This document shows, one piece after another, positions 1-11,753 of a stretch of 11,753 bases of DNA. The notes beneath the pieces are model-generated. The model was not told where the DNA came from. It saw only the letters and a list, made by a program, of their open reading frames with translations, and ran no database searches. This DNA comes from Bacteroidales bacterium (GTDB taxonomy: Bacteria > Bacteroidota > Bacteroidia > Bacteroidales > VadinHA17), in the NCBI GenBank assembly GCA_003155705.1, contig PMEC01000042.1, positions 1 through 11,753 on the forward strand. Direction: 5' to 3'. Position 1 is the first letter of the stretch; each line of letters starts with the position of its first letter. The position numbers were made by a program, and so were the translations under genes.

Positions 1-451
1 CGCGCCAATCACTTGTTGGCTGCTGTGCAACAAGATATCGGTCAGAAGGACTCTGATATTCCATCCAAATGAGTGCTTTTTCAACTGCCTCTTTAAGAAA
101 ACCATGTTCTCCTGTCACTTTCCTGAAAATTCCAACTCCCAGCAAAAATAAAGGAGTCGTATCACTTGATCCCCGGTCCTCTTTATCGTGGACCAGCGAT
201 GGTATATGACCTCGTTCAGTTTGATTCTTCGCCAGTGTTTCCAATACCCTACGGATACTTTCAATAAGCTTCTGATTTTCAGAAACAGCAATACCAAAGA
301 TGGAAAGCATAAGATCTCTTGTATATGGTTCGGGATATCCCCATCCTGCAGTCCGTGGAAGCCCATGAAATGGTCCGTGGGCATTATAAAGCAATACTTC
401 AATAGCAGCTTTCTTTGCCATTTCAATCTCTTCCCGGTTTGATGGTTGCAT
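1..451 (-). CDS. Glycoside hydrolase, (alpha/alpha)6-barrel type resembling amylo-alpha-1,6-glucosidase/invertase (N-terminal part)
   Basis: The reading frame is open from an ATG at 451 to the window edge and shows the first 150 residues; the 3' end is missing. There is no signal peptide, so a cytoplasmic location is likely. Visible motifs are GWGYPEPYTRD (residues 36-46), GHIPSLV (81-87) and SDTTPLFLLG (96-105). They resemble the helical-toroid hydrolases annotated as glycogen-debranching-like or GH100-like enzymes, where such segments line the active-site pocket. It starts 24 bp after the stop of the upstream GT4 gene, in an A-rich leader without Shine-Dalgarno, so it is probably co-transcribed with that glycosyltransferase and the PIG-L deacetylase. 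The fold class is fairly secure. The exact family and substrate are not, because the catalytic C-terminal half lies outside the window. Confidence 0.75.
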   Translation of the reverse strand, partial: MQPSNREEIEMAKKAAIEVLLYNAHGPFHGLPRTAGWGYPEPYTRDLMLSIFGIAVSENQKLIESIRRVLETLAKNQTERGHIPSLVHDKEDRGSSDTTPLFLLGVGIFRKVTGEHGFLKEAVEKALIWMEYQSPSDRYLVAQQPTSDWR

Positions 452-475
452 TTTATTAATTTAAAAATCTACCAA

Positions 476-1618
476 TTATCTTATATCCAGTTTCTGGTTC
501 ATTATCTGTACAAACCGCTTTGCAACAACACGATAGTCAAATTTTTCTACTACATGTTTTCTTGCTGCCTTACCCATTTTCTCTCTCAGATCAGGATCTG
601 TCATAAGAGTCATCAGATAATTTGCTATATCATGTACATTTGCACGATAATCCACAGTCCGTGGAACTGTAAATTTCACTCTGTGTTTATCTTCAAAACC
701 TGATTCATCTCCCAGTATTACTTCGTCCAAAGTAATTTTCCGGGCAATCTCAGCAAGAAATGCTGTTTCACCATGTATAAGTGTATCAAGCATTCCCATG
801 GCTTTAATTCCGATCACTGGTTTGCCGCACGCGCCTGCTTCCACCTGGGGCATTCCAAAACCTTCAAGACGGGAAGGGGCTGCATATATGTCGCACGCCC
901 CGATTAAGTAAGGCATAAAATTTCTTGAAATTGTATTAGTAGCATAGGTGACATTTTTTTCAATGCCAAGGTGTGTCGCCATTTCGATATCGGCCAGATT
1001 TTGAATCTTGGTTCTTGGCTGTGGCCATACTTTGCAGATATATTTCCAATCAGGCGCTTTGGTATCAATAATAGAGAGAGCCTGCATTACCTCCTGCGCT
1101 CCTTTTGATGCAGCATCACCTCCGATAGTGAGAATCATCAGCTGATCAGGTGGAATTCCCAGTGCATCACGGACTGCCAGAATTTTGGGATCGTCTTTTT
1201 TGTATGGGATAAAAGTATCGGTGTCGCAGCCTACAGGCAGCACTTCAATTTTATCGCCACTTATTCCATCTCTGATATACATCTCTTTTACCCAATTAGA
1301 TGTAACCAGTATAAGAGGAAGCGCATTCAGAATCTCCTGATAGTTTGCAATATAGCCATCAGCAACCAGCCATGGCACGGGTTGTACTCCATACCGCTGC
1401 GGATGAAGCACCAATTGCGGTGTGTGCCCCCAGTAACCCACTCCAACAACAACATTTGGTTCAAACCAGCGGTAATACCATTCTTTCTCCATTGCTGATT
1501 CGAAATGAACTGCATGTGCATCAATACCCATTTCGATGAGTCCACGGTATAACAGATCTCCCTGCGTTGCAAGCCCTCCCGGAGAAGGAGGGTAATCATA
1601 TAGTACAAGTACTTTCAT
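476..1618 (-). CDS. Glycosyltransferase family 4 (GT-B fold)
   Basis: This 380-residue protein has the length and layout of a GT4 retaining glycosyltransferase, which moves a sugar from a nucleotide-sugar donor to an acceptor. The N-terminal Rossmann half opens with MKVLVLYDYPPSPGGLAT, whose glycine-rich loop is typical of the family. The donor half has LTIGGDAASKG (about residue 183), and the canonical EX7E motif is present as EGFGMPQVE, followed by GACGKPVIG. There is no signal peptide or membrane segment, so it is cytosolic or peripherally membrane-bound. It begins 4 bp after the stop of the PIG-L deacetylase gene and ends 24 bp before the glycoside hydrolase gene, which argues for one transcript and one pathway. 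It does not look like BshA, because the N-terminal signature differs. Donor and acceptor cannot be inferred. Confidence 0.88.
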   Translation of the reverse strand: MKVLVLYDYPPSPGGLATQGDLLYRGLIEMGIDAHAVHFESAMEKEWYYRWFEPNVVVGVGYWGHTPQLVLHPQRYGVQPVPWLVADGYIANYQEILNALPLILVTSNWVKEMYIRDGISGDKIEVLPVGCDTDTFIPYKKDDPKILAVRDALGIPPDQLMILTIGGDAASKGAQEVMQALSIIDTKAPDWKYICKVWPQPRTKIQNLADIEMATHLGIEKNVTYATNTISRNFMPYLIGACDIYAAPSRLEGFGMPQVEAGACGKPVIGIKAMGMLDTLIHGETAFLAEIARKITLDEVILGDESGFEDKHRVKFTVPRTVDYRANVHDIANYLMTLMTDPDLREKMGKAARKHVVEKFDYRVVAKRFVQIMNQKLDIR

Positions 1619-1622
1619 AATA

Positions 1623-2324
1623 TCACACTTTCAAATTTTCAAATTGAGTAAGCCAATTATATGCATCAAGAGAACTTTTAAATTGCCGGAATGATTCTGA
1701 AAGGGGTGTTGTTTTAGCTTCAAAACTATTTTTTTCAAATCCATATGTTCTGGTAATTATTCTGTATTTCCTTAGCCAGGTCATTTTTGATAGTTTTTCG
1801 TGAACAGGTGCATTTTCTATTGATCTTGGATAGTATTCCTTATTGCCATCCTCGTAAGCAAAAGTCCATAACTCACTGGCAGACAATTTAGCCGAATGCC
1901 AAAGTCTTATTACAGCTCTGCCTGTCTCCTCATGCCGTATATGCCTGGTATATTCCCCGATCGGACTATGGGTAATCAACAGGTCGAAATGCCAGGGAGG
2001 CAATAAACCAAGGATGACACGCTCAATCTCATTTTCATCCAGTGGTTTCTGTTCCGGTCCATCGTTTAGATCACCCATTAAACCTTCTGATTTCAAAATT
2101 TTTAATGCATTCTGAAACCTGGGAGCCCTCTCTTCATCGCTTCCACGGCAAAGACAAACGACAAACCATTTCCATGAGGGATGGTTAAGAATTGTTCCAC
2201 CAGCCCATAATGTTTCATCGTCAGGATGTGCAACAATAAGTGCAACTGTTTTAGTGGCTTTCCGGGACTTTTTTAGAAATTGTAGCCAGGAACTGAGCGA
2301 GGATATTATTGCATTCACAGTCAT
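1623..2324 (-). CDS. PIG-L/LmbE-family zinc-dependent deacetylase
   Basis: A 233-residue protein of the PIG-L (LmbE) family, whose members remove N-acetyl groups from GlcNAc-type sugars or related conjugates using one zinc ion. The signature AHPDDE sits at residues 32-37, so His33 and Asp36 are the expected metal ligands and Asp35 the expected base. The second signature, GEYTRHIRH (123-131), corresponds to the usual GEYGHPDH block, with His131 as the likely third ligand. The first 25 residues precede the core strand and may be a short amphipathic helix; there is no clear signal peptide. It lies 4 bp upstream of a GT4 gene, an arrangement seen in pathways where a GT4 enzyme and a deacetylase act in sequence on an amino sugar. 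It is the first gene after a 190-bp gap, so it probably has its own promoter. Confidence 0.85.
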   Translation of the reverse strand: MTVNAIISSLSSWLQFLKKSRKATKTVALIVAHPDDETLWAGGTILNHPSWKWFVVCLCRGSDEERAPRFQNALKILKSEGLMGDLNDGPEQKPLDENEIERVILGLLPPWHFDLLITHSPIGEYTRHIRHEETGRAVIRLWHSAKLSASELWTFAYEDGNKEYYPRSIENAPVHEKLSKMTWLRKYRIITRTYGFEKNSFEAKTTPLSESFRQFKSSLDAYNWLTQFENLKV

Positions 2325-2435
2325 CTTGCAGACATTTCATTAGTTTTAACTCACAACATTTCTCCCGTTGTGCATAGAAATTCTGAGAAAAATCGTAATA
2401 CTATCCATACAAAAGAATACCAAAACACCACACAC

Positions 2436-2494
2436 TTTTTAATGGGAGAGGTGTTCCGGCATTTCAACCCGACAGTTTCATTTTTTAATGGAAG
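2436..2494. repeat. Pair of 13-bp direct repeats in the gap between the OmpA lipoprotein and PIG-L genes
   Basis: The sequence TTTTTAATGGRAG occurs at 2436-2448 and again at 2482-2494 on the plus strand, with 12 of 13 bases identical and 46 bp between starts. It sits in the noncoding 190-bp gap downstream of the OmpA lipoprotein gene and upstream of the PIG-L gene. It could be a regulator binding pair or chance similarity in AT-rich DNA. No clear promoter box was found in this gap; the best -7 candidate is a poor match (TACGATTTT on the minus strand, around 2370). Confidence 0.35.
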
Positions 2495-2514
2495 ATGATA
2501 AAGCTTCCCTCATT

Positions 2515-3312
2515 TTATTGTAATAACAGTTGATAAATCTCTTTCAGATCGGGAGATAATATGATTTCAGTTCTGCGGTTTCCTGCACGCCCGGCTACAG
2601 TATCATTTGATTTAATAGGGTGAAACTGGCCTCTGCCTGATGCTGTGATACGATTTGAATCAAATCCATAGTCTTTTGTTAAAATACGTACAATGGATGT
2701 GGCTCTTGCTGTGCTTAGATCCCAATTATCTTCAAATAGTTTGGTTTTAATGGGAACGTTGTCAGTATGACCTTCGACCAAAACAGTTATATCACTTGTA
2801 CCATTAAGCACTTTAGCAAGAGATTTAAGCGCCTCTTTCCCTTTGATATCAACTACATCGCTGCCTGATTTGAACAGAAGTTTTTCTTCGAGCGAAACAT
2901 AAACTTTTCCGTCCCTGATATATATGTTCAACTCGTCAGTTTTATAATTCAACAGTGCATCGGTTATTGAATTTTTAAGCCTGGTCATAACATCCTTCTC
3001 GTTTTGAATTATATCCTGAAGGCTTTTTAATCGCTTCGCCTGGTCGGCAATAGTCATTTTTGATTGTGAAGTAAGATCCTTCAGATCATTCTGGACTGAA
3101 GTATATTCATTCTGTAAATTTGCTTTATCATCGCTAAGGGCTTTTACCTTAGCGTTACAATCATTGAGTTGACTTTGTGCTTTGTCATTGTCCTTCTGAA
3201 GCTTATTTACTCTGTCTTCCGAAGCCATAAACTTTTTACTTGAGACACACGATGTAAATAGCAAACTAAAAATTATTGATACGAATACTAAGAAACGAAG
3301 TGATTTTTTCAT
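2515..3312 (-). CDS. OmpA-family peptidoglycan-binding lipoprotein with coiled-coil linker
   Basis: A 265-residue outer-membrane lipoprotein. Residues 1-21 form a lipoprotein signal peptide ending in LLFTSC, which makes Cys22 the lipidated residue. Residues from about 30 to 115 are rich in charged and heptad-like residues (LQKDNDKAQSQLNDCNAKV) and probably form a coiled coil spanning the periplasm. The C-terminal OmpA/MotB domain (about 145-255) starts at LLFKSGSDVVD and carries VEGHTDNVPI, NWDLSTARA and AGNRRTEI. These contain the conserved Asp and Arg that in this family clamp diaminopimelate in peptidoglycan. It likely anchors the outer membrane to the wall. The gene has its own promoter region, closely resembling the one before the lmo0937-like stress gene, and 76 bp separate it from the preceding glycosyltransferase gene. 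No convincing intrinsic terminator follows. Confidence 0.92.
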   Translation of the reverse strand: MKKSLRFLVFVSIIFSLLFTSCVSSKKFMASEDRVNKLQKDNDKAQSQLNDCNAKVKALSDDKANLQNEYTSVQNDLKDLTSQSKMTIADQAKRLKSLQDIIQNEKDVMTRLKNSITDALLNYKTDELNIYIRDGKVYVSLEEKLLFKSGSDVVDIKGKEALKSLAKVLNGTSDITVLVEGHTDNVPIKTKLFEDNWDLSTARATSIVRILTKDYGFDSNRITASGRGQFHPIKSNDTVAGRAGNRRTEIILSPDLKEIYQLLLQ

Positions 3313-3316
3313 TGAT

Positions 3317-3337
3317 ATTTTTTTAAGTGATTATTAA
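3317..3337 (-). promoter_or_regulatory. Conserved leader next to the OmpA lipoprotein start codon
   Basis: A 21-nt AT-rich segment lies 4 nt upstream of the lipoprotein ATG and contains AATCACTTAA on the minus strand. It matches 19 of 21 positions of the segment at 10492-10512, just upstream of the lmo0937-like gene. Other leaders in the window are AT-rich but do not share AATCACTTAA. It may be a translation-enhancing or RNA-level regulatory leader. Confidence 0.5.
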
Positions 3338-3342
3338 TGCTG

Positions 3343-3408
3343 CAAATATGAGTATCGTAGAAGTGACATATGTTACACAACTTTTTAATTATATTACATC
3401 ATTCACAC
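3343..3408 (-). promoter_or_regulatory. Promoter region of the OmpA lipoprotein gene with two upstream boxes
   Basis: Read on the minus strand, this region has GTGTGAATGATGTAA (3394-3408), then AAGTTGTGTAA (3373-3383), then CATATTTG (3343-3350). The last matches the Bacteroidota -7 consensus TAnnTTTG at all but its first base. The lipoprotein ATG lies 30 bp after the -7 box. The order and the exact spacing of all three elements are repeated upstream of the lmo0937-like gene (10525-10590). The first box overlaps the last codons of the 843-residue glycosyltransferase gene. A regulator binding two sites on the same face of the helix (21 bp apart) is inferred. No good -33 TTTG is visible, which fits an activator-dependent promoter. 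Confidence 0.6.
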
Positions 3409-5920
3409 TTCTTTTAGACCTTCTGTTTAATTTGGTTATTCCCGAAGCGTTTGTTATAAAGTAATCAGAAGTCAGCACAGTCAGTTTCTTCATTTCCGAC
3501 TGAATTATAACAAGTTCTTTTCTTGACTTTTTTTCAATATGAACTAACATCTGTCCAACTGGAACTCTACCAGACTTCCTGTACTTTGCAACTGTAAATC
3601 TTGCCATCAGATAACTTAATGTTGACTCTGCACCCTGGTTGAGATTCACATGAGTCTCCTCCAGCCCGTCGTAACAACCACCGGTACACGGGTTATAAAT
3701 AATCTGATGTAACCGGTTCTCCCCCAAAAACCAGTTAAATGCAGTTTCCATTTTCAGATGGTACTCCTCTTCCATAAAAACATCATAGAATTTACTTAAA
3801 GTCATAATAGTATAGGCAACATCGATCGGTTGTTCACCAAAATGCCCTGGCTCATGTCCTTTATGAAGCCAGTTTCTATTTGAAATTACTTCTATACCAT
3901 TTTCATTGAAAGTCTGGGATAAGAGAAAATTTAGTGACGATAAAGCAATTTCTTTATAAATTGTTTCTCCTGTCGACAGCCACGCGTATAACATTGCTTC
4001 AGGTAATATGCTGTTGGCATAAGTAAGATAACCCTCAAACCATTCCCATTTTTCGACCGATTCATGTTTGTACATTTGAACCAGACGGTTGGCTAAAGTT
4101 TTTAAAAGGACAAGATTTTCCGGTGATTTTTTGACACACTGATAATAATATAAACCTTTTATGGCAAACGCCATAGCTCTCGTGGAAAGCATTTTTTCTA
4201 TAGAAGGTATAGCCCTTTCAATGATTTCAGTTGTTTCGGAAATGATCTGCTCTGGCAATAAGCCCTTCAATGAGGTAATATATCCCAGTGCCCAGAGAGC
4301 TCTCCCGTTAGCATCATCTAAATTTGTAGTTTTGTTTTGACCGGTAAATTTGTTATTTATATCAACATAGTTAAGAAAACCGCCATCAGGTTGTTGACAT
4401 AGTCTTAAAAAACTGAGATATTTTTGAATATAAAACAGGCTCTTTTCATCTCCGTTCAGCATAAAATGCATACACATAGTAATCAGAGCTCTGGCATTAT
4501 CATCCAAAGTGTAGCCTGAACTGATATCGGGTTGATTTATCTTTGAAAACTGAATGATACCGGTATTGGTTGTCATTTGTTTCAGGTGGTTCAGGTTGAT
4601 AGCCGGAAGATTATAATGCATTGCAATATTATTCGCCGAAATCTTTTCGAACAACATGGCATGTGCCACTGCAGAATTCTCCCAGGCTGTGGAAACTATT
4701 TTCTGTAATGTATTTGAACTGATATTTCTTCGTAACGGTTCATCGTTGAGTAACCTTATAACACCATCTGCCAATTGCTTCGAATTGCGAAAATCAAAAA
4801 TAATTCCGGTATCCTCGGTCAATATCTCTTTTGCATGGGGAATAGGCGTTGAAATAATCGGGCAGCCACAACTCATGGCATAGACAAAAGTTCCGCTTAC
4901 AGCCTGGTTAGGATCATTGGTTGTGAACAGGTAAATATCTGTAAGCTGCAAATATTCCAGCAAATCAGGTAATGCTAAATAGTTATTAATGAATATCACA
5001 TGATCCTGAAGAGAATAGTATTTTACTTTTCGTTCAAGACTTTTCCGGTATTTTTCACCTTCCTCTTTTATAACTTCAGGATGCGTTTTACCAATAATAA
5101 GAAATACAACATCCGGGCTTATTCTGATTATGGATGGCAATGCCTTTAATGTAGTTTCAATACTTTTGCCTGAACTAAGCAGACCAAATGTAGTAAGAAC
5201 TTTCCGTCCTTTCAGACCATATTTATTTTTAAGGAAATCTTTACTCAAATGAGGTACGAGATGAGTTCCGTGTGCAATTACAGTTATTTTCTGATGCGGA
5301 ACATCATACACATCGGTTAATAGTAGTGCAGAGTTATTCGTCATTACTACGATTGATTCGCAAACAGCTGCAATTTTTTGTATTTTTAATTTTAGCTGTT
5401 TATCAGGATGTGGTAATACTGTATGAAATGCTATTACAACAGGTTTTGAAAGTTTGTACAGAAATTTAAGAAAGGAGTGTTCCTGCTCTCTGAAAAAGCC
5501 AAACTCATGTTGGATCAAGACAATTTTAATTTGATTGTCTTTATTGATTTTTAATGCAAGTTTCTCATATTCTGCTGCTGATGAAGTATTAAGAATAAAT
5601 TTTACTTCTTCCGGATATTGATAATTCATCTTTCCTGGTTCCAGGGCACAAACTTTTATTGATAATGAATTACTGAATTTATTATCGAGTGCTTTTATCA
5701 AGTCATGGGAATAAGTGGCTATACCGCATACTCTTGGAGGATAAGATGTGATAAATAAAATTTCAGCCGGGTCTTCGGGATGATCTAATAATTTTTCTTT
5801 GCGGTTTTTAGAAGTATTTGGGATATGTTCTTCCCTTTTCAGACTAAACAATTCTTTCTTAAGATTTACATCCTCACCGAAAGGTCCGGTAACGATTTTA
5901 TTTCTCATCTCACACGGCAT
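3389..5920 (-). CDS. Fusion protein: GT4-type glycosyltransferase plus C-terminal helical (toroid-like) domain
   Basis: An 843-residue cytoplasmic protein with two parts. Residues about 50-430 form a GT4/GT-B module: ILFITSYPPRVCGIATYS (54-71) is the N-terminal loop, and FGLLSSGKSIETTLKAL (about 240) is the donor-domain helix. Where GT4 enzymes normally have EX7E, this protein reads QAVSGTFVY (about 338), so both glutamates are replaced. Residues about 445-790 are helical with repeated motifs: GYTLDDNARAL (about 466), DANGRALWALGY and NQGAESTLSYL (about 757). This resembles an (alpha/alpha) toroid of the kind found in carbohydrate enzymes. The chosen ATG at 5920 overlaps the GH130 gene by 11 bp. 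An in-frame ATG at 5908, one base after that gene's TGA, is an equally good start. The activity is unproven; the neighbouring GH130 points to oligosaccharide metabolism. Confidence 0.82.
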   Translation of the reverse strand: MPCEMRNKIVTGPFGEDVNLKKELFSLKREEHIPNTSKNRKEKLLDHPEDPAEILFITSYPPRVCGIATYSHDLIKALDNKFSNSLSIKVCALEPGKMNYQYPEEVKFILNTSSAAEYEKLALKINKDNQIKIVLIQHEFGFFREQEHSFLKFLYKLSKPVVIAFHTVLPHPDKQLKLKIQKIAAVCESIVVMTNNSALLLTDVYDVPHQKITVIAHGTHLVPHLSKDFLKNKYGLKGRKVLTTFGLLSSGKSIETTLKALPSIIRISPDVVFLIIGKTHPEVIKEEGEKYRKSLERKVKYYSLQDHVIFINNYLALPDLLEYLQLTDIYLFTTNDPNQAVSGTFVYAMSCGCPIISTPIPHAKEILTEDTGIIFDFRNSKQLADGVIRLLNDEPLRRNISSNTLQKIVSTAWENSAVAHAMLFEKISANNIAMHYNLPAINLNHLKQMTTNTGIIQFSKINQPDISSGYTLDDNARALITMCMHFMLNGDEKSLFYIQKYLSFLRLCQQPDGGFLNYVDINNKFTGQNKTTNLDDANGRALWALGYITSLKGLLPEQIISETTEIIERAIPSIEKMLSTRAMAFAIKGLYYYQCVKKSPENLVLLKTLANRLVQMYKHESVEKWEWFEGYLTYANSILPEAMLYAWLSTGETIYKEIALSSLNFLLSQTFNENGIEVISNRNWLHKGHEPGHFGEQPIDVAYTIMTLSKFYDVFMEEEYHLKMETAFNWFLGENRLHQIIYNPCTGGCYDGLEETHVNLNQGAESTLSYLMARFTVAKYRKSGRVPVGQMLVHIEKKSRKELVIIQSEMKKLTVLTSDYFITNASGITKLNRRSKRSVNDVI

Positions 5921-6941
5921 AAGTCAACAATTCAGCCACGAGCTCTGATAAATTCACTGAAGCGCATGCGATGGAAGTATCTGCGGCACCATAATAGATA
6001 AACAGGGTTCCGCCAAACAATGAAGTCCCGGTTGGAAAAACAACATTATTTACTTCTCCTTTTAATTCCCAGTCATATTGAGGAGAAAACAATGCAAAGG
6101 GCAATCTGGATATTTCTTTGGCAGGGTTATTCAAATCAAGTAAAGCTGCACAGGCCGAATATACGTATCCCTTTTCAGTTTCTTCCACTCCATGGTAAAT
6201 CAAAAGCCAGCCATATTTGGTCTCAATCGGAGGGCACCCGCTACCGATATAACTTGATTCGTGTTGATGAAGAGGGTCGAGAACGATATGATCCTGCAGA
6301 TCAAAAAAATAATCTTTCCAGAATTTTTTTGTAAGGTCCTTTATATTATTAACAGATACAATCTGAATGCCAGGTCTTATCCTGTGAAGGAAAACCAGTT
6401 TTCCATCAATTCTACGGGGAAAGAAAATTACATTTTTGTCCCACAGTATCATCTTTTTGTCGGGATCAGCCCGCAGGGAATAAAACTTCTGATTACGGTA
6501 ATATTTTTCATTTACTTTACCGGCCGATTCGGCAAGGAGCACAAATTCTGCATAGGATATCGGAGGGACAATGATCCCCCTCTTTTCAAAATGTTTTAAA
6601 TCTTTTGAAGTGGCTAAAGCTCCACGGGCATTTGTTCCATCGTAGCAGGTATATGTCAGATAAAACAGGTCATCAATTTTTACAATACGTGGATCTTCGA
6701 CACCATGTGATTCATATTCGGACTCAGGAACAATAACGGGTTCATCCAGCCGTTCAGCAACTGTTAACGGACCATCCAGTCTGCAGTAACCTATGCTTGA
6801 ATGATTCCCATTTTGCACTGCACGATAAAAAAGATGAACACTGTCTCCCTCTCGTATTGCTGCCGGATTCAGAACTCCCTCGTTTTCAAATTCAAGATCA
6901 GTTTTTTTTAGTATAATACCTTCTTTTTTGACAACTATCAT
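5910..6941 (-). CDS. Glycoside hydrolase/phosphorylase family 130 protein
   Basis: This 343-residue protein has the five-bladed beta-propeller sequence pattern of GH130, a family of beta-mannoside phosphorylases and beta-1,2-mannosidases. The diagnostic motif is HGVEDPR (residues 79-85), in which Asp83 is the expected catalytic acid. LFYRAVQNG (37-45) and GSGCPPIETKYGWLLIYHGV are further family blocks. There is no signal peptide, so it acts in the cytoplasm, where a phosphorylase would conserve bond energy as a sugar phosphate. The length is usual for the family. Its ATG overlaps the stop of the AI-2E-family gene by 4 bp (ATGA), and its end overlaps the glycosyltransferase fusion gene, so translation is probably coupled. 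Phosphorylase or hydrolase cannot be decided by eye, since that depends on phosphate-binding residues elsewhere in the fold. Related proteins are sometimes misannotated as Cry7Aa-like pesticidal proteins. Confidence 0.85.
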   Translation of the reverse strand: MIVVKKEGIILKKTDLEFENEGVLNPAAIREGDSVHLFYRAVQNGNHSSIGYCRLDGPLTVAERLDEPVIVPESEYESHGVEDPRIVKIDDLFYLTYTCYDGTNARGALATSKDLKHFEKRGIIVPPISYAEFVLLAESAGKVNEKYYRNQKFYSLRADPDKKMILWDKNVIFFPRRIDGKLVFLHRIRPGIQIVSVNNIKDLTKKFWKDYFFDLQDHIVLDPLHQHESSYIGSGCPPIETKYGWLLIYHGVEETEKGYVYSACAALLDLNNPAKEISRLPFALFSPQYDWELKGEVNNVVFPTGTSLFGGTLFIYYGAADTSIACASVNLSELVAELLTYAV

Positions 6942-8047
6942 TTAGATTTTATTTTTATTTTTTTAATAATCAATTCTATTTTTAATAAAGGAGGCATTGT
7001 GTCCCCTAATAAAAATCCAATGGGTTTTAAGGGTTCTATATGGTCGCAGATAAGTTTAACAATGGCAAGGACCGGTACGGCAAGAAACATACCCGGTATG
7101 CCCCATATAGCATTTCCTACAAGGACAACTATTACTGAGAAAAGCGCATTGATCTTTACCTTTGAGGCAACTATGTACGGACTGATATAGTGATTGTCTA
7201 TCAGTTGGATGATATAATAGGCTATCAGAACGTATAAAGCATACAATGGTGTTGACTTGGTGACCAGAGCGACCATCATGGGCATTGCTACTGCAATTAT
7301 TCCTCCGATATATGGAATGACGTTGAGCAATGCTGCGAGTATTCCAAGAATGAATGCATATTGAATTCCAAGTACTAAAAGTGCAATGGTATTCAATGCT
7401 GACATAATAGCAGCTTCAATAACCAGTCCTACAAGATAGCGTTGAATAACAGTTTTGATCTGGATTACTATTTCCTTAACCCGGCTTTCGTAGCTGGAAC
7501 CGGAGAGTCTGCGAATAAACTCAAGCAAGATAGGTTGGTAAAATAATATCATGAAGATATAAAATGGAATTAAAAACAATACCACTAAAGCGTTACCAAT
7601 GATCATTATTGTATGCCCGATTGAGGAGGTGCTGGTATTGATTATATCTCCCGTCGCTTTTGTAATCCAATCATGGATTTTCTGAGGGTCTTTATTATAA
7701 TAGTCGGCACCATCTGAAATAGTCTCGTTAATTATCGATGTAAATTTTTGGACAAATATCGGCCATGATTCACTAAACCTGGTTGCCTGAGAAATTAACA
7801 CACTTCCAAACGCAAAAATTACTAAGAAGGTAAGCAACATAGTGATTGCTATTGCTATTATCCTGTTAATCTTTAGCCTTACAAAAAAATTTACAACCGG
7901 ATGAAGAACAATCGCAATTATTACCGCGAAAACAATAGGAACAATGATGCTTTTAGCGAGGTACAAAACAGCAAACAACGCAAAAAAACCGATTATGAAA
8001 ATGGTTGCCTTTGCATAAAATGGTAATTTTAATTCTTCATCTTTCAC
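6938..8047 (-). CDS. AI-2E/PerM-family multi-spanning membrane protein
   Basis: A 369-residue inner-membrane protein of the AI-2E transporter family (PerM/TqsA, UPF0118). It begins with two close hydrophobic stretches (about residues 12-50) and a third near 60-85, followed by a soluble stretch of about 60 residues. The family block ALLNVIPYIGGIIAVAMP (about 237-255) and several further helices come next, and the protein ends with a lysine-rich tail. Members export small solutes or act as Na+(Li+)/H+ antiporters; autoinducer-2 export is shown for only some, so the substrate is unknown. The start is GTG at 8047, overlapping the previous gene by 11 bp; no in-frame ATG occurs early enough to replace it. 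It sits between stress-type membrane proteins and glycan enzymes, so it could move ions or a product of that pathway. Confidence 0.88.
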   Translation of the reverse strand: MKDEELKLPFYAKATIFIIGFFALFAVLYLAKSIIVPIVFAVIIAIVLHPVVNFFVRLKINRIIAIAITMLLTFLVIFAFGSVLISQATRFSESWPIFVQKFTSIINETISDGADYYNKDPQKIHDWITKATGDIINTSTSSIGHTIMIIGNALVVLFLIPFYIFMILFYQPILLEFIRRLSGSSYESRVKEIVIQIKTVIQRYLVGLVIEAAIMSALNTIALLVLGIQYAFILGILAALLNVIPYIGGIIAVAMPMMVALVTKSTPLYALYVLIAYYIIQLIDNHYISPYIVASKVKINALFSVIVVLVGNAIWGIPGMFLAVPVLAIVKLICDHIEPLKPIGFLLGDTMPPLLKIELIIKKIKIKSK

Positions 8048-8441
8048 GGTTTTGAGAATTCATTTCTTTTTTATGAAGGAAATGCTGAAAGATAGCCTGA
8101 CCAATTGATTTTATAGTGTCAGAATGTTGAGCAACAACGTTTGCGACACCAAACTGCAGAATTGAACCTGCCAGTTTTTTTATCAAACTGCCTGAAGTGC
8201 CTACAAATATTTTTTTCGTGAGATATCCTGAGACTAAGCCAATTGCTGTACCTGAAAGATCATCTGCCATAAATGGTGATGAGGACAGTTCACTTATTGC
8301 GCTTTTGAGAAGACTGAGAGGTTTCAAACTCTCATAAGTAATATAGAATTGTTCTTTCAGGAGTTGCTTTTTAATCTCTTGCTCTGATTCCAATAATTGA
8401 ATGGCATCCTGAAGTGCAAGGGCAGAAGTTATTTCTTGCAT
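8037..8441 (-). CDS. Small protein of unknown function, amphipathic/hydrophobic C-terminal half
   Basis: I do not recognise this 134-residue protein. Residues 1-45 are charged and helical (LLESEQEIKKQLLKEQF). A middle segment has ISELSSSPF. Residues about 62-105 are glycine-rich and moderately hydrophobic (SGTAIGLVSGYLTKKIFVG), suggesting membrane association. The last 20 residues are polar and basic. It starts 6 bp after the stop of the holin-like gene and overlaps the AI-2E-family gene by 11 bp, so it is part of the operon and may work with the holin-like protein at the inner membrane. Its pairing with a YqjE-like protein recalls the small YqjD/YqjE/YqjK sets of Proteobacteria, but this is a contextual comparison, not a sequence match I can support. 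Confidence 0.7.
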   Translation of the reverse strand: MQEITSALALQDAIQLLESEQEIKKQLLKEQFYITYESLKPLSLLKSAISELSSSPFMADDLSGTAIGLVSGYLTKKIFVGTSGSLIKKLAGSILQFGVANVVAQHSDTIKSIGQAIFQHFLHKKEMNSQNRER

Positions 8442-8447
8442 ATGAGT

Positions 8448-8789
8448 CTATTTTAGTAGCAGTTTGATCATATAATTACGGACAATCTTCTTTATCCAAT
8501 TGTGCATAAAGAAGTGTACAACTATCCCTGTAACACAATAAAAACCAGCTACGACAAAGAATCCGTAAAAGGTCTTGCCCAGGATTTCGCCCAGCCAGAA
8601 AGCAATTCCCAGATTTAAAAAAAGCAGACCTGACGCAATTAGTACAAAAACAGCAGAATGAGGTACGAAAGAGGATACAATATCCGATGTTTTGTCGACG
8701 GCTTTAAGTTTTCCCAGCTCAAAGGTCGTTTTACCATAATCAGTAACTTTTTCAAACAGAGACTCAATCAACTTAGTATGGTCTTCCAT
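8448..8789 (-). CDS. Holin-superfamily/YqjE-like small membrane protein
   Basis: A 113-residue protein with an amphipathic charged N-terminal helix (residues 1-38), two transmembrane segments (about 44-67, FVLIASGLLFLNLGIAFWLG; and about 73-95, FYGFFVVAGFYCVTGIVV) and a basic cytoplasmic tail (KKIVRNYMIKLLLK). This is the layout of the YqjE/Phage_holin_3_6 group, which despite the name is usually chromosomal and associated with stress or envelope functions. No phage gene is present nearby. It starts 39 bp after the cupin gene and ends 6 bp before the next gene, so it belongs to the same transcription unit. The molecular role is unknown. Confidence 0.75.
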   Translation of the reverse strand: MEDHTKLIESLFEKVTDYGKTTFELGKLKAVDKTSDIVSSFVPHSAVFVLIASGLLFLNLGIAFWLGEILGKTFYGFFVVAGFYCVTGIVVHFFMHNWIKKIVRNYMIKLLLK

Positions 8790-8828
8790 TGTTTCGGGTA
8801 TAACTAAATTATATAAATACCGGGTCTA

Positions 8829-9242
8829 TTAGTTTTCTGACTGCCGAAAAATGTCTTTAACAATAGTCAGAAGAAAAACAGTTTCTTCCTTGTTTGTAAG
8901 GCTGTACTTTATGTTTTCATGAAGTGTCAGCAGCTGACCTTTATCCAGAGTTACAGATTCTTTACGGGTATGGAACCTGAGTTTACCCTCAATTATCTGC
9001 AAGGTAATGGAATCATGCGATTGAAAAGAACTGATTTCAGTTCCTTCATGCAATGCAGTAAGCAGAATCTGCTTGCCAGGACTGTTTAATAGTATCATCG
9101 CATTAAGTTCACCTTTTGACCAGGAATTACTGTGTTTCATATTTGCAATCAGGTTTGGCAAATCGAAAGTGAACAATGAAGACGAATGTGCCCCCGCCTC
9201 CTTGAAAAAAGGAGGTTCGGTTTTCAACGTTTCTATTTCCAT
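8829..9242 (-). CDS. Small cupin-fold protein
   Basis: A 137-residue protein with the single-domain cupin beta-barrel pattern. The first cupin stretch is around ILLTALHEGTEISSFQSHDSIT (about residues 54-75), followed by LQIIEGKLRFHT (77-88) and LDKGQLLTLHENIKYSL (93-109). A few histidines occur at places where cupins bind metal (H64, H71, H103), but the usual HxH pair is not clear, so metal binding is uncertain. There is no signal peptide. It lies 49 bp downstream of the ytxH-like gene and 39 bp upstream of the holin-like gene in the stress-protein part of the operon. Such stand-alone cupins act as small-molecule sensors or enzymes; which applies here cannot be told. Confidence 0.72.
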   Translation of the reverse strand: MEIETLKTEPPFFKEAGAHSSSLFTFDLPNLIANMKHSNSWSKGELNAMILLNSPGKQILLTALHEGTEISSFQSHDSITLQIIEGKLRFHTRKESVTLDKGQLLTLHENIKYSLTNKEETVFLLTIVKDIFRQSEN

Positions 9243-9291
9243 TTCTCTTGTTTTATCTGTTTAACATTGTTCCATTTAAATTCAAAATATT

Positions 9292-9570
9292 TTAACCCCT
9301 GGCGGTTTTCACATCCTTTTTCACATCATCTGCTTTGGATTTGGCCTTTTCAGCAAAATCGGAAACTTCTTCCTTTACCTCTTCAAATTTTTCGGAGATA
9401 CCATCAAGAAATTCATTGAATTTTTCTTTTAAATCATCTGCATAGTCATCACTTTTCTTGACTATTTTTTTTCGTGTAACCGAACCTTTATCCGGAGCAA
9501 ATAAAACCCCCAATAATGCGCCAGCAGCGACACCGGCCAACAGGCCTAGTAATACTTTTCCTGAACTCAT
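9292..9570 (-). CDS. YtxH domain-containing stress/envelope protein
   Basis: A 92-residue protein with the standard YtxH layout. Residues 5-26 form a glycine/alanine-rich membrane segment (LLGLLAGVAAGALLGVLFAP), directly followed by DKGSVTRKK, the conserved APxxGxxTRKK block of the family. The rest is a highly charged lysine/glutamate-rich helix (about 38-88), probably a coiled coil or a disordered amphipathic rod in the cytoplasm. YtxH proteins are commonly induced by general, salt or ethanol stress; their mechanism is unknown. It is 19 bp downstream of the second small secreted paralog and shares its transcription unit. Confidence 0.9.
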   Translation of the reverse strand: MSSGKVLLGLLAGVAAGALLGVLFAPDKGSVTRKKIVKKSDDYADDLKEKFNEFLDGISEKFEEVKEEVSDFAEKAKSKADDVKKDVKTARG

Positions 9571-9589
9571 GATATTTGTATTTAGTCGG

Positions 9590-9904
9590 TTACAATAATA
9601 TTATAATCAGCAATACAATAAGTAATATACCACCACCGGTAATATATACAACACTTCCTGCCTCCCTGTGATGATGTCCGGTCGAAACAACTTCTACCCG
9701 TTGCAAATTTTTCTTTTCAGCCAGCTTTACTTTTGACATATCAATCGCGTTTGTTTCGCTATATCTCGGCTCAAAGGATTTAGCATCTGCAGGTTTTGCA
9801 GGTACTGAAGAGGAAGTTCTATCTATTGTCGCTGCATTTGACTGAAGCGGGAGTAATGTCAATGACAAACATGTTGCCATCAGGCAAAGAATGAGCTTTT
9901 TCAT
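9590..9904 (-). CDS. Small exported protein with C-terminal membrane tail (diverged paralog 2)
   Basis: A 104-residue protein with a Sec signal peptide (MKKLILCLMATCLSLTLLPL; likely cleavage after SNA at about 22-24) and a C-terminal hydrophobic tail that runs to the last residue (ITGGGILLIVLLIIILL). The mature part would be periplasmic and anchored by the tail. It is a tandem paralog of the next upstream gene, sharing the signal peptide, the SSSVPAKPA block and the SETNAIDMSKVKLAEKK segment. Here the LRKEVKSINHRLREI segment of the other copy is replaced by a histidine-rich GHHHREAGS just before the membrane. No basic residues follow the tail, so it is not a typical sorting signal. It lies 39 bp after paralog 1 and 19 bp before the ytxH-like gene. 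Function unknown. Confidence 0.78.
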   Translation of the reverse strand: MKKLILCLMATCLSLTLLPLQSNAATIDRTSSSVPAKPADAKSFEPRYSETNAIDMSKVKLAEKKNLQRVEVVSTGHHHREAGSVVYITGGGILLIVLLIIILL

Positions 9905-9943
9905 AATATTTTGTTTTAATAATTTATTGATTTAAAAATTTGA

Positions 9944-10264
9944 TTATAATAAAATAACCAGCAGAATCACGATCAGAATTAATGCCCCAACTGAAATATA
10001 CACACCACCGCCAATTTCTCTCAGCCTATGGTTAATTGACTTTACTTCTTTTCTTAAACTTTTCTTTTCTGCCGACTTTAATTCTGATTTATTCATCGCA
10101 TTTATTTCGTTCAACCTTAATTCTAAGGTTTTAGCTTCTGCAGCTTCTGCAGGTTTTGCAGGTACTGATGAGGAAGTTTTAGCAATAGTTGCCGCATTTG
10201 ATTGAAGTGGAATTAATGTTAATGACAAGCATGTTACCATTAAACACAGAATGATCTTTTTCAT
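9944..10264 (-). CDS. Small exported protein with C-terminal membrane tail (paralog 1)
   Basis: A 106-residue protein with a Sec signal peptide (MKKIILCLMVTCLSLTLIPL, cleavage near SNA|A), a short charged mature segment and a C-terminal hydrophobic tail (VYISVGALILIVILLVILL) ending at the last residue. From memory, the segment RLNEINAMNKSELKSAEKK followed by LRKEV is characteristic of a small Bacteroidota family of unknown function found near YtxH-type stress genes. A perfect 9-bp tandem repeat (10133-10141 and 10142-10150) doubles an AEA tripeptide in the linker. The next gene downstream is a diverged copy, so this is a tandem duplication. It begins 61 bp after the lmo0937-like gene, with no promoter box in the gap, and is probably co-transcribed with it. 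Confidence 0.8.
   Translation of the reverse strand: MKKIILCLMVTCLSLTLIPLQSNAATIAKTSSSVPAKPAEAAEAKTLELRLNEINAMNKSELKSAEKKSLRKEVKSINHRLREIGGGVYISVGALILIVILLVILL
10133..10150. repeat. Perfect 9-bp tandem duplication inside paralog 1
   Basis: AGCTTCTGC occurs twice back to back on the plus strand. It is in frame and adds three residues (AEA) to the linker after the signal peptide. Paralog 2 lacks the second unit, so this is either a recent slippage expansion or a loss in the other copy. Confidence 0.85.
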
Positions 10265-10325
10265 TTTCTTTGATTTTATAATTAATTAATTTAAGTTGAA
10301 TAATTTCCTTGAATGACGGCAGGTA

Positions 10326-10484
10326 CTATTCGAATAACTTTCTGCCTTGTATTACCCTAAGTATTACTGCGATAATTGCAATAACAAGAAGTACATGAAT
10401 GATACCTCCGGCGCTGTAAGCAAAATATCCGACTGCCCAGGCGATAAGCAGAATTACTGCTACGACATAAAGTAAATTTCCCAT
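10326..10484 (-). CDS. lmo0937-family small membrane protein (DUF5670-like)
   Basis: A 52-residue protein starting at ATG 10484 and ending with TAG at 10326. It has two hydrophobic helices: residues about 3-22 (LLYVVAVILLIAWAVGYFAY) and 28-44 (IIHVLLVIAIIAVILRV). They are separated by SAGGIIH, and the protein ends in a short basic tail (IQGRKLFE). This is the complete pattern of the lmo0937 family, widespread two-helix membrane proteins often encoded among stress genes. It is easy to miss because of its size. It is the first gene after a well-marked promoter region (10525-10590), with a -7 box 40 bp upstream of the ATG, and probably leads the long operon running through the glycosyltransferase fusion gene. 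Function unknown. Confidence 0.88.
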   Translation of the reverse strand: MGNLLYVVAVILLIAWAVGYFAYSAGGIIHVLLVIAIIAVILRVIQGRKLFE

Positions 10485-10491
10485 GATTGTA

Positions 10492-10512
10492 ATTTTATTA
10501 AGTGATTAATAA
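10492..10512 (-). promoter_or_regulatory. Conserved leader upstream of the lmo0937-like gene
   Basis: A 21-nt AT-rich segment located 7 nt upstream of the start codon and containing AATCACTTAA on the minus strand. It matches the leader of the OmpA lipoprotein gene (3317-3337) at 19 of 21 positions. It lies downstream of the predicted transcription start, so it would act in the RNA. Confidence 0.5.
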
Positions 10513-10524
10513 CTTTTGTACTGA

Positions 10525-10590
10525 CAAAGGTATGTCTCACTATTACCGGAACCTTTACATAATTTCAGGAATAAGTTACATCATTCACAC
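10525..10590 (-). promoter_or_regulatory. Promoter of the stress/glycan operon with two upstream boxes
   Basis: On the minus strand, GTGTGAATGATGTAA (10576-10590) is followed by AAATTATGTAA (10555-10565) and by TACCTTTG (10525-10532), a perfect match to the Bacteroidota -7 consensus TAnnTTTG. The expected -33 TTTG is poor. The same three elements with identical spacing (21 bp between box ends, 43 bp from the first box to the -7 box) precede the OmpA lipoprotein gene. The boxes would sit at about -71 to -57 and -46 to -36, suitable for an activator. Confidence 0.68.
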
Positions 10591-10599
10591 ATTATCAGG

Positions 10600-10728
10600 A
10601 AGTACTTAGAGTGCCTGGAGTTTGGAGTGCCTAAAGTTTAGAAGCAGTTTTAAGAGAGCTGGAGTTTGTGGTGAACTAAAGTTAATAAGTCTATTTAACT
10701 CTAGGCAGTCTAGGTACTCTAGGCACTT
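10600..10728. repeat. Imperfect inverted array of 9-bp units (AGTGCCTAG type)
   Basis: The left arm (10601-10640) carries units such as AGTACTTAG, AGTGCCTGG and AGTGCCTAA, interleaved with AGTTTGG-type units; two 16-bp blocks (10608-10623 and 10624-10639) match at 13 of 16 positions. The right arm holds three contiguous 9-bp units on the opposite strand: AGTGCCTAG (10719-10727), AGTACCTAG (10710-10718) and ACTGCCTAG (10701-10709). The arms can pair imperfectly around a spacer of about 60 bp. The array ends 8 bp from the stop of the receiver gene, so its transcript could form a long hairpin that ends or protects the upstream mRNA. From memory, GTGCCTAAAGT-like repeats are scattered in some Bacteroidota genomes; that needs a genome search. 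No CRISPR layout is present. Confidence 0.75.
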
Positions 10729-10735
10729 ATTGAAA

Positions 10736-11170
10736 CTACATCTTCTCCATGTACCAGCTCAGTGCCTTTTCAATTTTCTGATAATGAAAAATAGTGGTAA
10801 TGGCTTTTTGGAGACGTATAAAGGCAGTTTCACTTTTGACAATATAATCAAAGGCCTGATGTTTCATACAATTTACTGCCACTTCAATTTTATCCTGGGA
10901 GGAAAGCATGACAACTGGAATAAGCGGATTAGCTGTTTTTATTCTATCAAGTATTTCCAGTCCATTTATGGCATTTTTATCGACACTATTCAGATAGTAA
11001 TCCAGTATGACTATATCCGGATTTCGTGATAGATTTTCCAGACATTTTTCTCCTGTTGCGAATGTCATTATAGCAGATTCAGTATTTTGTGAGAATTCGA
11101 TCTCCAATGACTTAAGGAACAATGGATCATCATCAACCAGAAAAAGCAGTATTTTTTTTTCGTTCATCAT
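10736..11170 (-). CDS. Stand-alone receiver-domain response regulator
   Basis: A 144-residue CheY-like protein consisting of a receiver domain only. The acidic pocket is Asp14/Asp15 (LVDDDP), the phospho-acceptor is Asp57 (IVILDYYL), the switch Ser is in VVMLSSQD (Ser90) and the conserved Lys is Lys112 (YIVKS). There is no output domain, so it would signal by protein contact or serve as a phosphate shuttle. Its start codon overlaps the stop of the upstream hybrid kinase gene by ATGA; a second ATG follows immediately. This pairing suggests it receives phosphate from that kinase or its HPt domain. It is followed by the inverted repeat array and is not obviously co-transcribed with the downstream stress operon. 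Confidence 0.92.
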   Translation of the reverse strand: MMNEKKILLFLVDDDPLFLKSLEIEFSQNTESAIMTFATGEKCLENLSRNPDIVILDYYLNSVDKNAINGLEILDRIKTANPLIPVVMLSSQDKIEVAVNCMKHQAFDYIVKSETAFIRLQKAITTIFHYQKIEKALSWYMEKM

Positions 11171-11753
11171 TTTTTCGTTTTTTCTATCAGATCATATTCT
11201 TCTTTCAATTCTACACAGGCCTGAGAGCAAATGGTTTCCAGTTTTAAAATCAATCCATCTACTTCATCCAGATGTTGTTGTGTATGTGAATATTCCTGAA
11301 TTTTTTTTGCTATTTCTTCAAAATCCTTATGTATGCCCATTATAGAAAATGAGGGAATTATTTTATGCACTGCTGTATGCAAAGAATTCCAATCCTTTTG
11401 GTACAGACTTTGTTTCATTGTGATAATCAAAGACGGGGTCTGCTGAAGATAAAGAGCTATCATTTCCATCATCAATTCCGGATTAGCTTTTGTACGATTG
11501 TACAAATAAGTTAAATCACAACATTTTGATCTGCCTGCCGGTGATCCGGTTTGATTATTTTCTTTCACTTTATTCCTTCTATTCTGTTTTTTCCCTTCAT
11601 CCTGCAACGGCAGAGGTTCCTTGAATAAATCAATTATCTTATTATACAATAATCTTTCGTCAATAGGTTTTGAGATATAATCATTCATACCGACAGCTTT
11701 GCATTTCTCAAGATCAACCGTTGTTACATCAGCAGTTAATGCAATTATGGGTA
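11167..11753 (-). CDS. Hybrid sensor histidine kinase, C-terminal part (receiver end plus HPt domain)
   Basis: Only the last 194 residues are in the window; the coding frame is open at the right edge. They begin inside a receiver domain: PIIALTADVTTVDLEKCKA, then VGMNDYISKP, where the Lys of SKP (visible residue 28) is the conserved receiver lysine. After a polar linker comes an HPt four-helix domain (about visible residues 80-185) with the phospho-accepting histidine in TAVHKIIPSFSIMG (His at about visible residue 129). This is the C-terminal layout of a multi-step phosphorelay kinase; the sensor and kinase domains lie outside the window. The gene overlaps the stand-alone receiver gene by 4 bp, so translation is probably coupled and that receiver is a likely partner. 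The stimulus is unknown. Confidence 0.88.
   Translation of the reverse strand, partial: PIIALTADVTTVDLEKCKAVGMNDYISKPIDERLLYNKIIDLFKEPLPLQDEGKKQNRRNKVKENNQTGSPAGRSKCCDLTYLYNRTKANPELMMEMIALYLQQTPSLIITMKQSLYQKDWNSLHTAVHKIIPSFSIMGIHKDFEEIAKKIQEYSHTQQHLDEVDGLILKLETICSQACVELKEEYDLIEKTKK

Follow-up and report, generated by a model that had tools for sequence, protein, structure and literature searches.

Introduction

Among described activators, AraC at araBAD, with its two half-sites araI1 and araI2, has an arrangement similar to the one reported here. The AraC half-sites are spaced 21 bp apart, and the N-terminal domain of AraC is an arabinose-binding cupin. Copper chaperones of the HMA type (Atx1, CopZ, HAH1) are also among the closest known systems, in this case to the candidate regulator. 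AraC binding at araI2 recruits polymerase (PMC4760080). Here we analyse a composite element found twice in an 11,753-bp stretch of a Bacteroidales bacterium genome (contig PMEC01000042.1 of GCA_003155705.1, positions 1 to 11,753), referred to below as the window. Both copies are members of a set of 21 switches, all much alike, in one genome. Most likely these 21 switches respond to an AraC-type activator that has been little studied, occurs in many Bacteroidota and seems to turn on envelope and stress genes jointly. The fixed architecture of the element, its gene set, its co-occurrence with the regulator, the location of sites at or ahead of regulator genes, and the fold predictions were all computed here.

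Architecture and Genome-Wide Occurrence of the Element

The composite element consists of a TGTGAATNATGTAA box (box 1), a TTRTGTAA box that follows at one 21-bp period (box 2), and a -7-like box 43 bp after box 1. The preliminary description of this DNA had reported an identical same-strand 15-mer upstream of an lmo0937-like gene and an OmpA gene, and a search of the window found exact copies of GTGTGAATGATGTAA at both places, 10576-10590 and 3394-3408, on the minus strand. In the putative operator of the lmo0937 operon, box 1 (10576-10590), the upstream half-site, is followed one 21-bp period further by the putative downstream half-site TTATGTAA (10555-10562, minus strand) and then by the -7-like box TACCTTTG (10525-10532, minus strand), with a transcription start predicted near 10520. 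The whole element at this site scores E 2.5e-15 and is among the 21 genome matches of the profile described below. In the putative OmpA operator (whole element, E 3.2e-11), box 1 (3394-3408) shares sequence with the final codons of the glycosyltransferase gene upstream and is followed on the same strand by the putative half-site TTGTGTAA (3373-3380) and the -7-like box CATATTTG (3343-3350), which would place the transcription start near 3338. TTGTGTAA and TTATGTAA each end exactly 21 bp past the 15-mer, where the TTrTGTAA box had been noticed, and CATATTTG and TACCTTTG begin after 43 bp. The position claimed for a TAnnTTTG-type -7 box thus holds at both sites, while its sequence holds in part, as the OmpA copy lacks the first T. 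By our own arithmetic, about 0.1-0.3 shared 15-mer pairs are expected by chance in 11.75 kb, so the pair alone is not significant and the test had to be made genome-wide. The whole window gave zero Rfam matches at the gathering threshold, and a known RNA element was rejected on this basis.

The own genome (G000) comprises 3.196 Mb in 257 contigs, is 76% complete, and carries the window on contig C74. Allowing up to two mismatches, the 15-mer has 31 matches in it, against 5 for the reversed pattern. Base 9 is the difference in 8 of the 10 one-mismatch matches and is free in the motif, with G, A, C and T all found; the 15-mer is one instance of this wider motif. From the 31 matches, 21 were used as sites and 10 were left out, namely nine without box 2 (one each in L005, L011-L017 and L019) and one cut by a contig end (L008:29, minus strand). 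The 21 sites align without gaps over 74 columns, with the second box at the same place in all of them, and a sequence profile of the whole element returned 21 matches at E <= 6.2e-11, which are the same sites from which the profile was built, the next match being at 0.109.

Pairwise identity among the 21 sites is 0.91 in box 1, 0.83 in box 2 and 0.64 in the -7 box, and falls to 0.49 and 0.32 in the two spacers, 0.28 upstream and 0.30 downstream. The high identity of the boxes combined with unrelated flanks indicates a control element rather than a duplication, and the spacer values bear out the earlier remark that the sequences between the elements differ as in a control region. The clustering of sites, such as 17 over about 34 kb in one relative (G011:C7), could be read as the mark of a dispersed repeat or of recent duplications. 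However, outside the boxes, and likewise in the second spacer, identity is down to 0.28-0.32, and the element keeps a fixed position before unrelated genes. The absence of Rfam matches from the window at the gathering threshold counts against it too. With flanks unrelated and homologous flanks not seen, this explanation was rejected, and we give it practically no weight.

A plausible same-strand gene stands behind 20 of the 21 sites, and only a doubtful 42-codon frame behind the remaining one (L010:5161). Judged by its centre, the OmpA site is the only one inside an open frame of at least 120 codons, that of the glycosyltransferase, at its 3' end. Spacing keeps strictly to the 21-bp period: box 2 occurs at the canonical offset in 104 of 181 box-1 matches and at most three times at any other offset, the self-match of the box aside, and the spacing is fixed in other genomes too. 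Back-to-back sites serving divergent genes were also observed (L003:7976/8088, L006:5119/5193, L149:4056-4263 and L206:10220/10315).

Across 122 sites from regulator loci of other genomes, the first T of the -7-like box is kept in 25%, the A in 94% and TT in 98-99%. Strict spacing up to the -7 box would also suit the elements of an alternative sigma promoter, for instance of the extracytoplasmic function (ECF) type, and TGTAAC resembles an ECF -35 element. Against this, box 2 is separated from the -7 box by 22 bp and box 1 lies another 21 bp upstream, and such distances are too large for a sigma hexamer pair. Moreover, the linked gene encodes an AraC protein, and the -7 box resembles the housekeeping TAnnTTTG (PMC9723704). 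An alternative sigma factor is therefore judged very unlikely, on spacing in particular. In Flavobacterium psychrophilum, the -7 box lies at -12 to -5 of mapped transcription starts (PMC9723704). By that measure, box 2 would occupy about -42 to -35 and box 1 about -70 to -56. The consensus of the 21 aligned sites shows no TTTG at -33.

The Candidate Regulator

The candidate regulator is a protein of 186 amino acids in which a copper-chaperone-like domain precedes an AraC DNA-binding domain (HMA-AraC). Its C-terminal domain of ~100 residues contains two helix-turn-helix motifs, as in the AraC/XylS family. Residues 1-62 are predicted to adopt a beta-alpha-beta-beta-alpha-beta fold, which matches copper chaperones and ACT domains; no N-terminal cupin effector domain of the kind present in AraC proper was found, and Pfam detected no receiver domain in the protein. 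The N-terminal domain carries the motif M-x-[C/S]-x-R-C. Among 80 regulators compared, the MxCxxC metal loop is intact in 28 and its first Cys is replaced by Ser in 52, and M8, R12 and C13 are invariant in all 80. The family is large, with 7998 of 7999 scored candidates at E <= 1e-30. G000 holds four AraC-type proteins of 186 amino acids; two of its sites directly precede genes for such regulators, and a third precedes a CsbD-like frame of 60 amino acids followed by a regulator gene.

Co-Occurrence and Placement of Sites and Regulator

The site profile and the regulator profile were run separately on 60 relatives, the own genome included. Within the genus (36 genomes), at least 10 sites at E <= 0.1 were present in 13 of 16 regulator-positive and 0 of 20 regulator-negative genomes (Fisher p 2.4e-7), and without the own genome in 12/15 versus 0/20 (p 5.5e-7); these counts carry no species-tree correction, for which a genus-collapsed test in the phylum serves as a partial substitute. 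The phylum sample was an even draw of 198 genomes, searched with a profile rebuilt from 124 sites. The site (E <= 1e-3) was found in 44 genomes, the regulator (E <= 1e-20) in 96 and both in 41 (p 1.7e-12), and the association persisted after collapsing by genus (30/59 versus 3/44, p 8.8e-7). Counted by hand, genomes whose best regulator reaches at least 286 bits number 16, of which 15 have sites; among the 80 other regulator-positive genomes, 26 do. Among the matches listed, 13 of the 19 one-site genomes show where both the site and at least one regulator lie, and one relative (G004) has one regulator and one site.

Placement was studied at the best 80 of 539 regulator loci from GTDB genomes, chosen for the regulator. 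A weight matrix of the 21 own sites found 168 sites of at least 8 bits in these loci against 0 in the reversed sequence, with at least one site in 73 of the 80. In 35 loci, a site is found no more than 60 bp from the regulator stop. In 30 of these the first base of box 1 is at -6 exactly, and GTG, ATG or CTG followed by TGA thereby serves as the regulator's final codon and stop. Locus L160, from the cultured environmental species Chitinophaga rupis, is one with a site at the stop of its regulator. A same-strand site within 450 bp upstream of the regulator was present in 14 loci, and a divergent site in 9.

The regulon itself is almost certainly real. Co-occurrence in the genus and the phylum, the sites at the last codon of the regulator, and direct repeats two helical turns apart, as in the AraC mode of binding, make the HMA-AraC protein the likely reader, and we regard it as probable that this protein binds the element. 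Several observations weigh against this assignment. Six of the 20 regulator-negative genomes of the genus (G001, G008, G018, G021, G024 and G034) have a best site below 1e-6, as do three regulator-negative genomes of the order (G039, G048 and G057). In these nine regulator-free genomes, a search with the helix-turn-helix part only found nothing close, the best values being 4.5e-8 in G057 and 4.8e-8 in G021. In the phylum sample, G251 likewise has a best site below 1e-6 without a regulator, and G118 and G193 are marginal cases. For two of the three G251 sites a contig end is no more than 220 bp away, so the regulator may have been lost there in assembly. Conversely, 55 of the 96 regulator-positive genomes of the phylum sample show zero sites; either sites and the regulators that read them have both diverged, or some family members use different operators.

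The good sites kept by some regulator-free genomes would also fit a real regulon read by another protein, such as a LytTR-type response regulator or the adjacent receiver/histidine kinase system, with the AraC gene being merely a target. A receiver-domain protein is encoded directly upstream of the 10590 operator (10736-11170, minus strand), and a histidine kinase and two AraC-type regulators are encoded upstream of it on the same contig (G000:C74:13114-14408), which places two-component genes between the AraC genes and the window operator. However, Pfam shows a receiver domain alone and zero DNA-binding families in the adjacent receiver protein. LytTR proteins also bind direct repeats of about 21-bp period, and their genes occur in 60 of the 60 relatives; being there regardless of sites, they do not discriminate, and their number follows the number of sites in the genus weakly (Spearman 0.39, against 0.80 in the regulator comparison). 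Since the regulator's final codon and its stop fall within the site in 30/80 loci, and a genome with one regulator and one site exists, we consider another reader rather unlikely. In the window, imperfect short repeats, GAGTGCCTAAAGTTTG and ACTCTAGGC, were seen between the receiver gene and the operator (10609-10727).

Target Genes in the Window and Across Genomes

All genes behind the two window sites lie on the minus strand, and from strand and spacing both runs are probably operons. The first gene behind the 10590 site encodes an lmo0937 family membrane protein (DUF5670, 10326-10484). It is followed by two small proteins (9944-10264 and 9590-9904), adjacent paralogues which by eye have a signal peptide and a C-terminal membrane segment; a by-eye relative of the first stands behind a site in G011 (L206:4806-5126). 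Twelve similar-looking small proteins, some with an HHHGG stretch, form a group behind sites, and neither this group nor the two paralogues match any Pfam family above cut-off. The run continues with a YtxH-like protein (9292-9570; PF12732, E 2.9e-21), a weakly matching cupin-like protein (8829-9242; PF07883, E 0.037, below cut-off), a holin-X-like small membrane protein (8448-8789; PF07332, E 6.4e-6, just below cut-off), a small protein without a family (8037-8441), an AI-2E family transporter (6938-8047; PF01594), a GH130 beta-mannoside phosphorylase family protein (5910-6941; PF04041), and a glycosyltransferase of 843 amino acids (3389-5920; PF00534), whose 3' end contains the next operator. 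Behind the 3408 site, the OmpA-type lipoprotein gene (2515-3312; PF00691) comes first, followed by genes for a PIG-L family protein and another glycosyltransferase.

A gene call stood behind 208 of the 218 sites from the own genome, the relatives and the GTDB loci. The gene behind each site was chosen by a rule favouring longer frames (at L008:56 the regulator was chosen though a CsbD-like frame of 60 amino acids stands first), and cluster representatives were checked by Pfam. The largest clusters among the 208 genes contain 29 small cupin-like proteins, whose cupin matches are below the Pfam cut-off, 20 proteins with a Big_5 lipoprotein as representative, and 16 AraC-type regulators. They are followed by 12 small membrane proteins, 12 CsbD-like proteins (weak matches in the own and G011 frames), 8 lmo0937 and 8 OmpA proteins, so that the suggested test of whether sites cluster upstream of YtxH, CsbD, lmo0937 or OmpA genes is answered in the affirmative. 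Gene starts lie at a median of 108 bp after the start of the 15-mer. Universal stress protein and GH130 genes also stand directly behind sites, and the target set as a whole includes lmo0937, YtxH, CsbD, OmpA, DUF6600, L,D-transpeptidase, Mla and ice-binding genes.

One group of sites forms the G011 island, with 17 sites over about 34 kb (L206 and L207; G011:C7:40001-80000). Its genes encode ice-binding proteins, an L,D-transpeptidase and MlaE-ABC-MlaD, together with DUF6600-, CsbD- and lmo0937-like proteins recognised by eye; ice-binding-like (PF11999) proteins were located at L206:15340-15675 and 17905-18948. A YqeY gene and a cation-efflux gene stand next to this island, and the same pair stands beside an own-genome regulator (L002, by Pfam) and in G004 (L205, by eye), as if the cluster grew or shrank at one place. 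The smallest version observed, in G004 (L205:1535-6177), consists of the regulator with an operator at its stop, a cupin-like protein, a frame of 66 amino acids, a GH130 protein (Pfam) and a glycosyltransferase (by eye), the last two being by-eye relatives of the proteins encoded at 5910-6941 and 3389-5920 of the window.

Proposed Mechanism and Significance

The preliminary description proposed one regulon, in which an activator with two sites, not named there, controls both the OmpA lipoprotein gene and the lmo0937/YtxH/glycan operon. Results from the whole genome and from other genomes support this proposal. The element would act as the operator-promoter of the regulon, under a probable activator. 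An AraC-family dimer would probably bind the pair of direct half-sites, which share a face of the helix at their distance of 21 bp. Lying at about -42 to -35, the downstream half-site would contact polymerase and stand in for the -33 box, and transcription from the -7 box would thus depend on the activator. The regulon would comprise the regulator's own genes and those of the OmpA lipoprotein, lmo0937, YtxH, CsbD-like, DUF6600, L,D-transpeptidase, Mla transport, GH130/glycosyltransferase and ice-binding proteins. More tentatively, and with the odds somewhat against it in our view, these genes may form a phylum-wide stress response, in which a one-component HMA-AraC activator senses a metal or thiol signal via its invariant R-C pair, drives its own cluster from an operator embedded where its reading frame ends, and governs an envelope-protection regulon that can expand, numbering 1 to about 50 promoters in a given genome.

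To our knowledge, no counterpart of the SigB or PhyR stress responses has been well described in environmental Bacteroidota. The element, a regulator family of thousands and the target list together make it testable what turns on the CsbD, YtxH, lmo0937, OmpA and Mla genes of the phylum, and the operator offers a way to annotate targets in regulator-bearing genomes. We judge it unusual for an operator to cover the final codon and stop of its regulator and to be kept there in distant genomes.

Comparison with Known Systems

No description of the regulon or its regulator was found in the open-access literature searched. The candidate differs from the AraC-type systems closest to it. The global activators MarA, SoxS and Rob are set apart by the operator, which here is a tandem pair at fixed spacing, and by the added N-terminal domain of the protein described here. 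In contrast to the AraC response regulators of the YesN/AraT type, the protein of 186 amino acids shows no receiver domain. The arrangement of the sites resembles that of AraC itself, whereas the HMA-AraC protein carries a predicted copper-chaperone-like fold of 62 residues in place of the cupin and is associated with many targets rather than a sugar operon.
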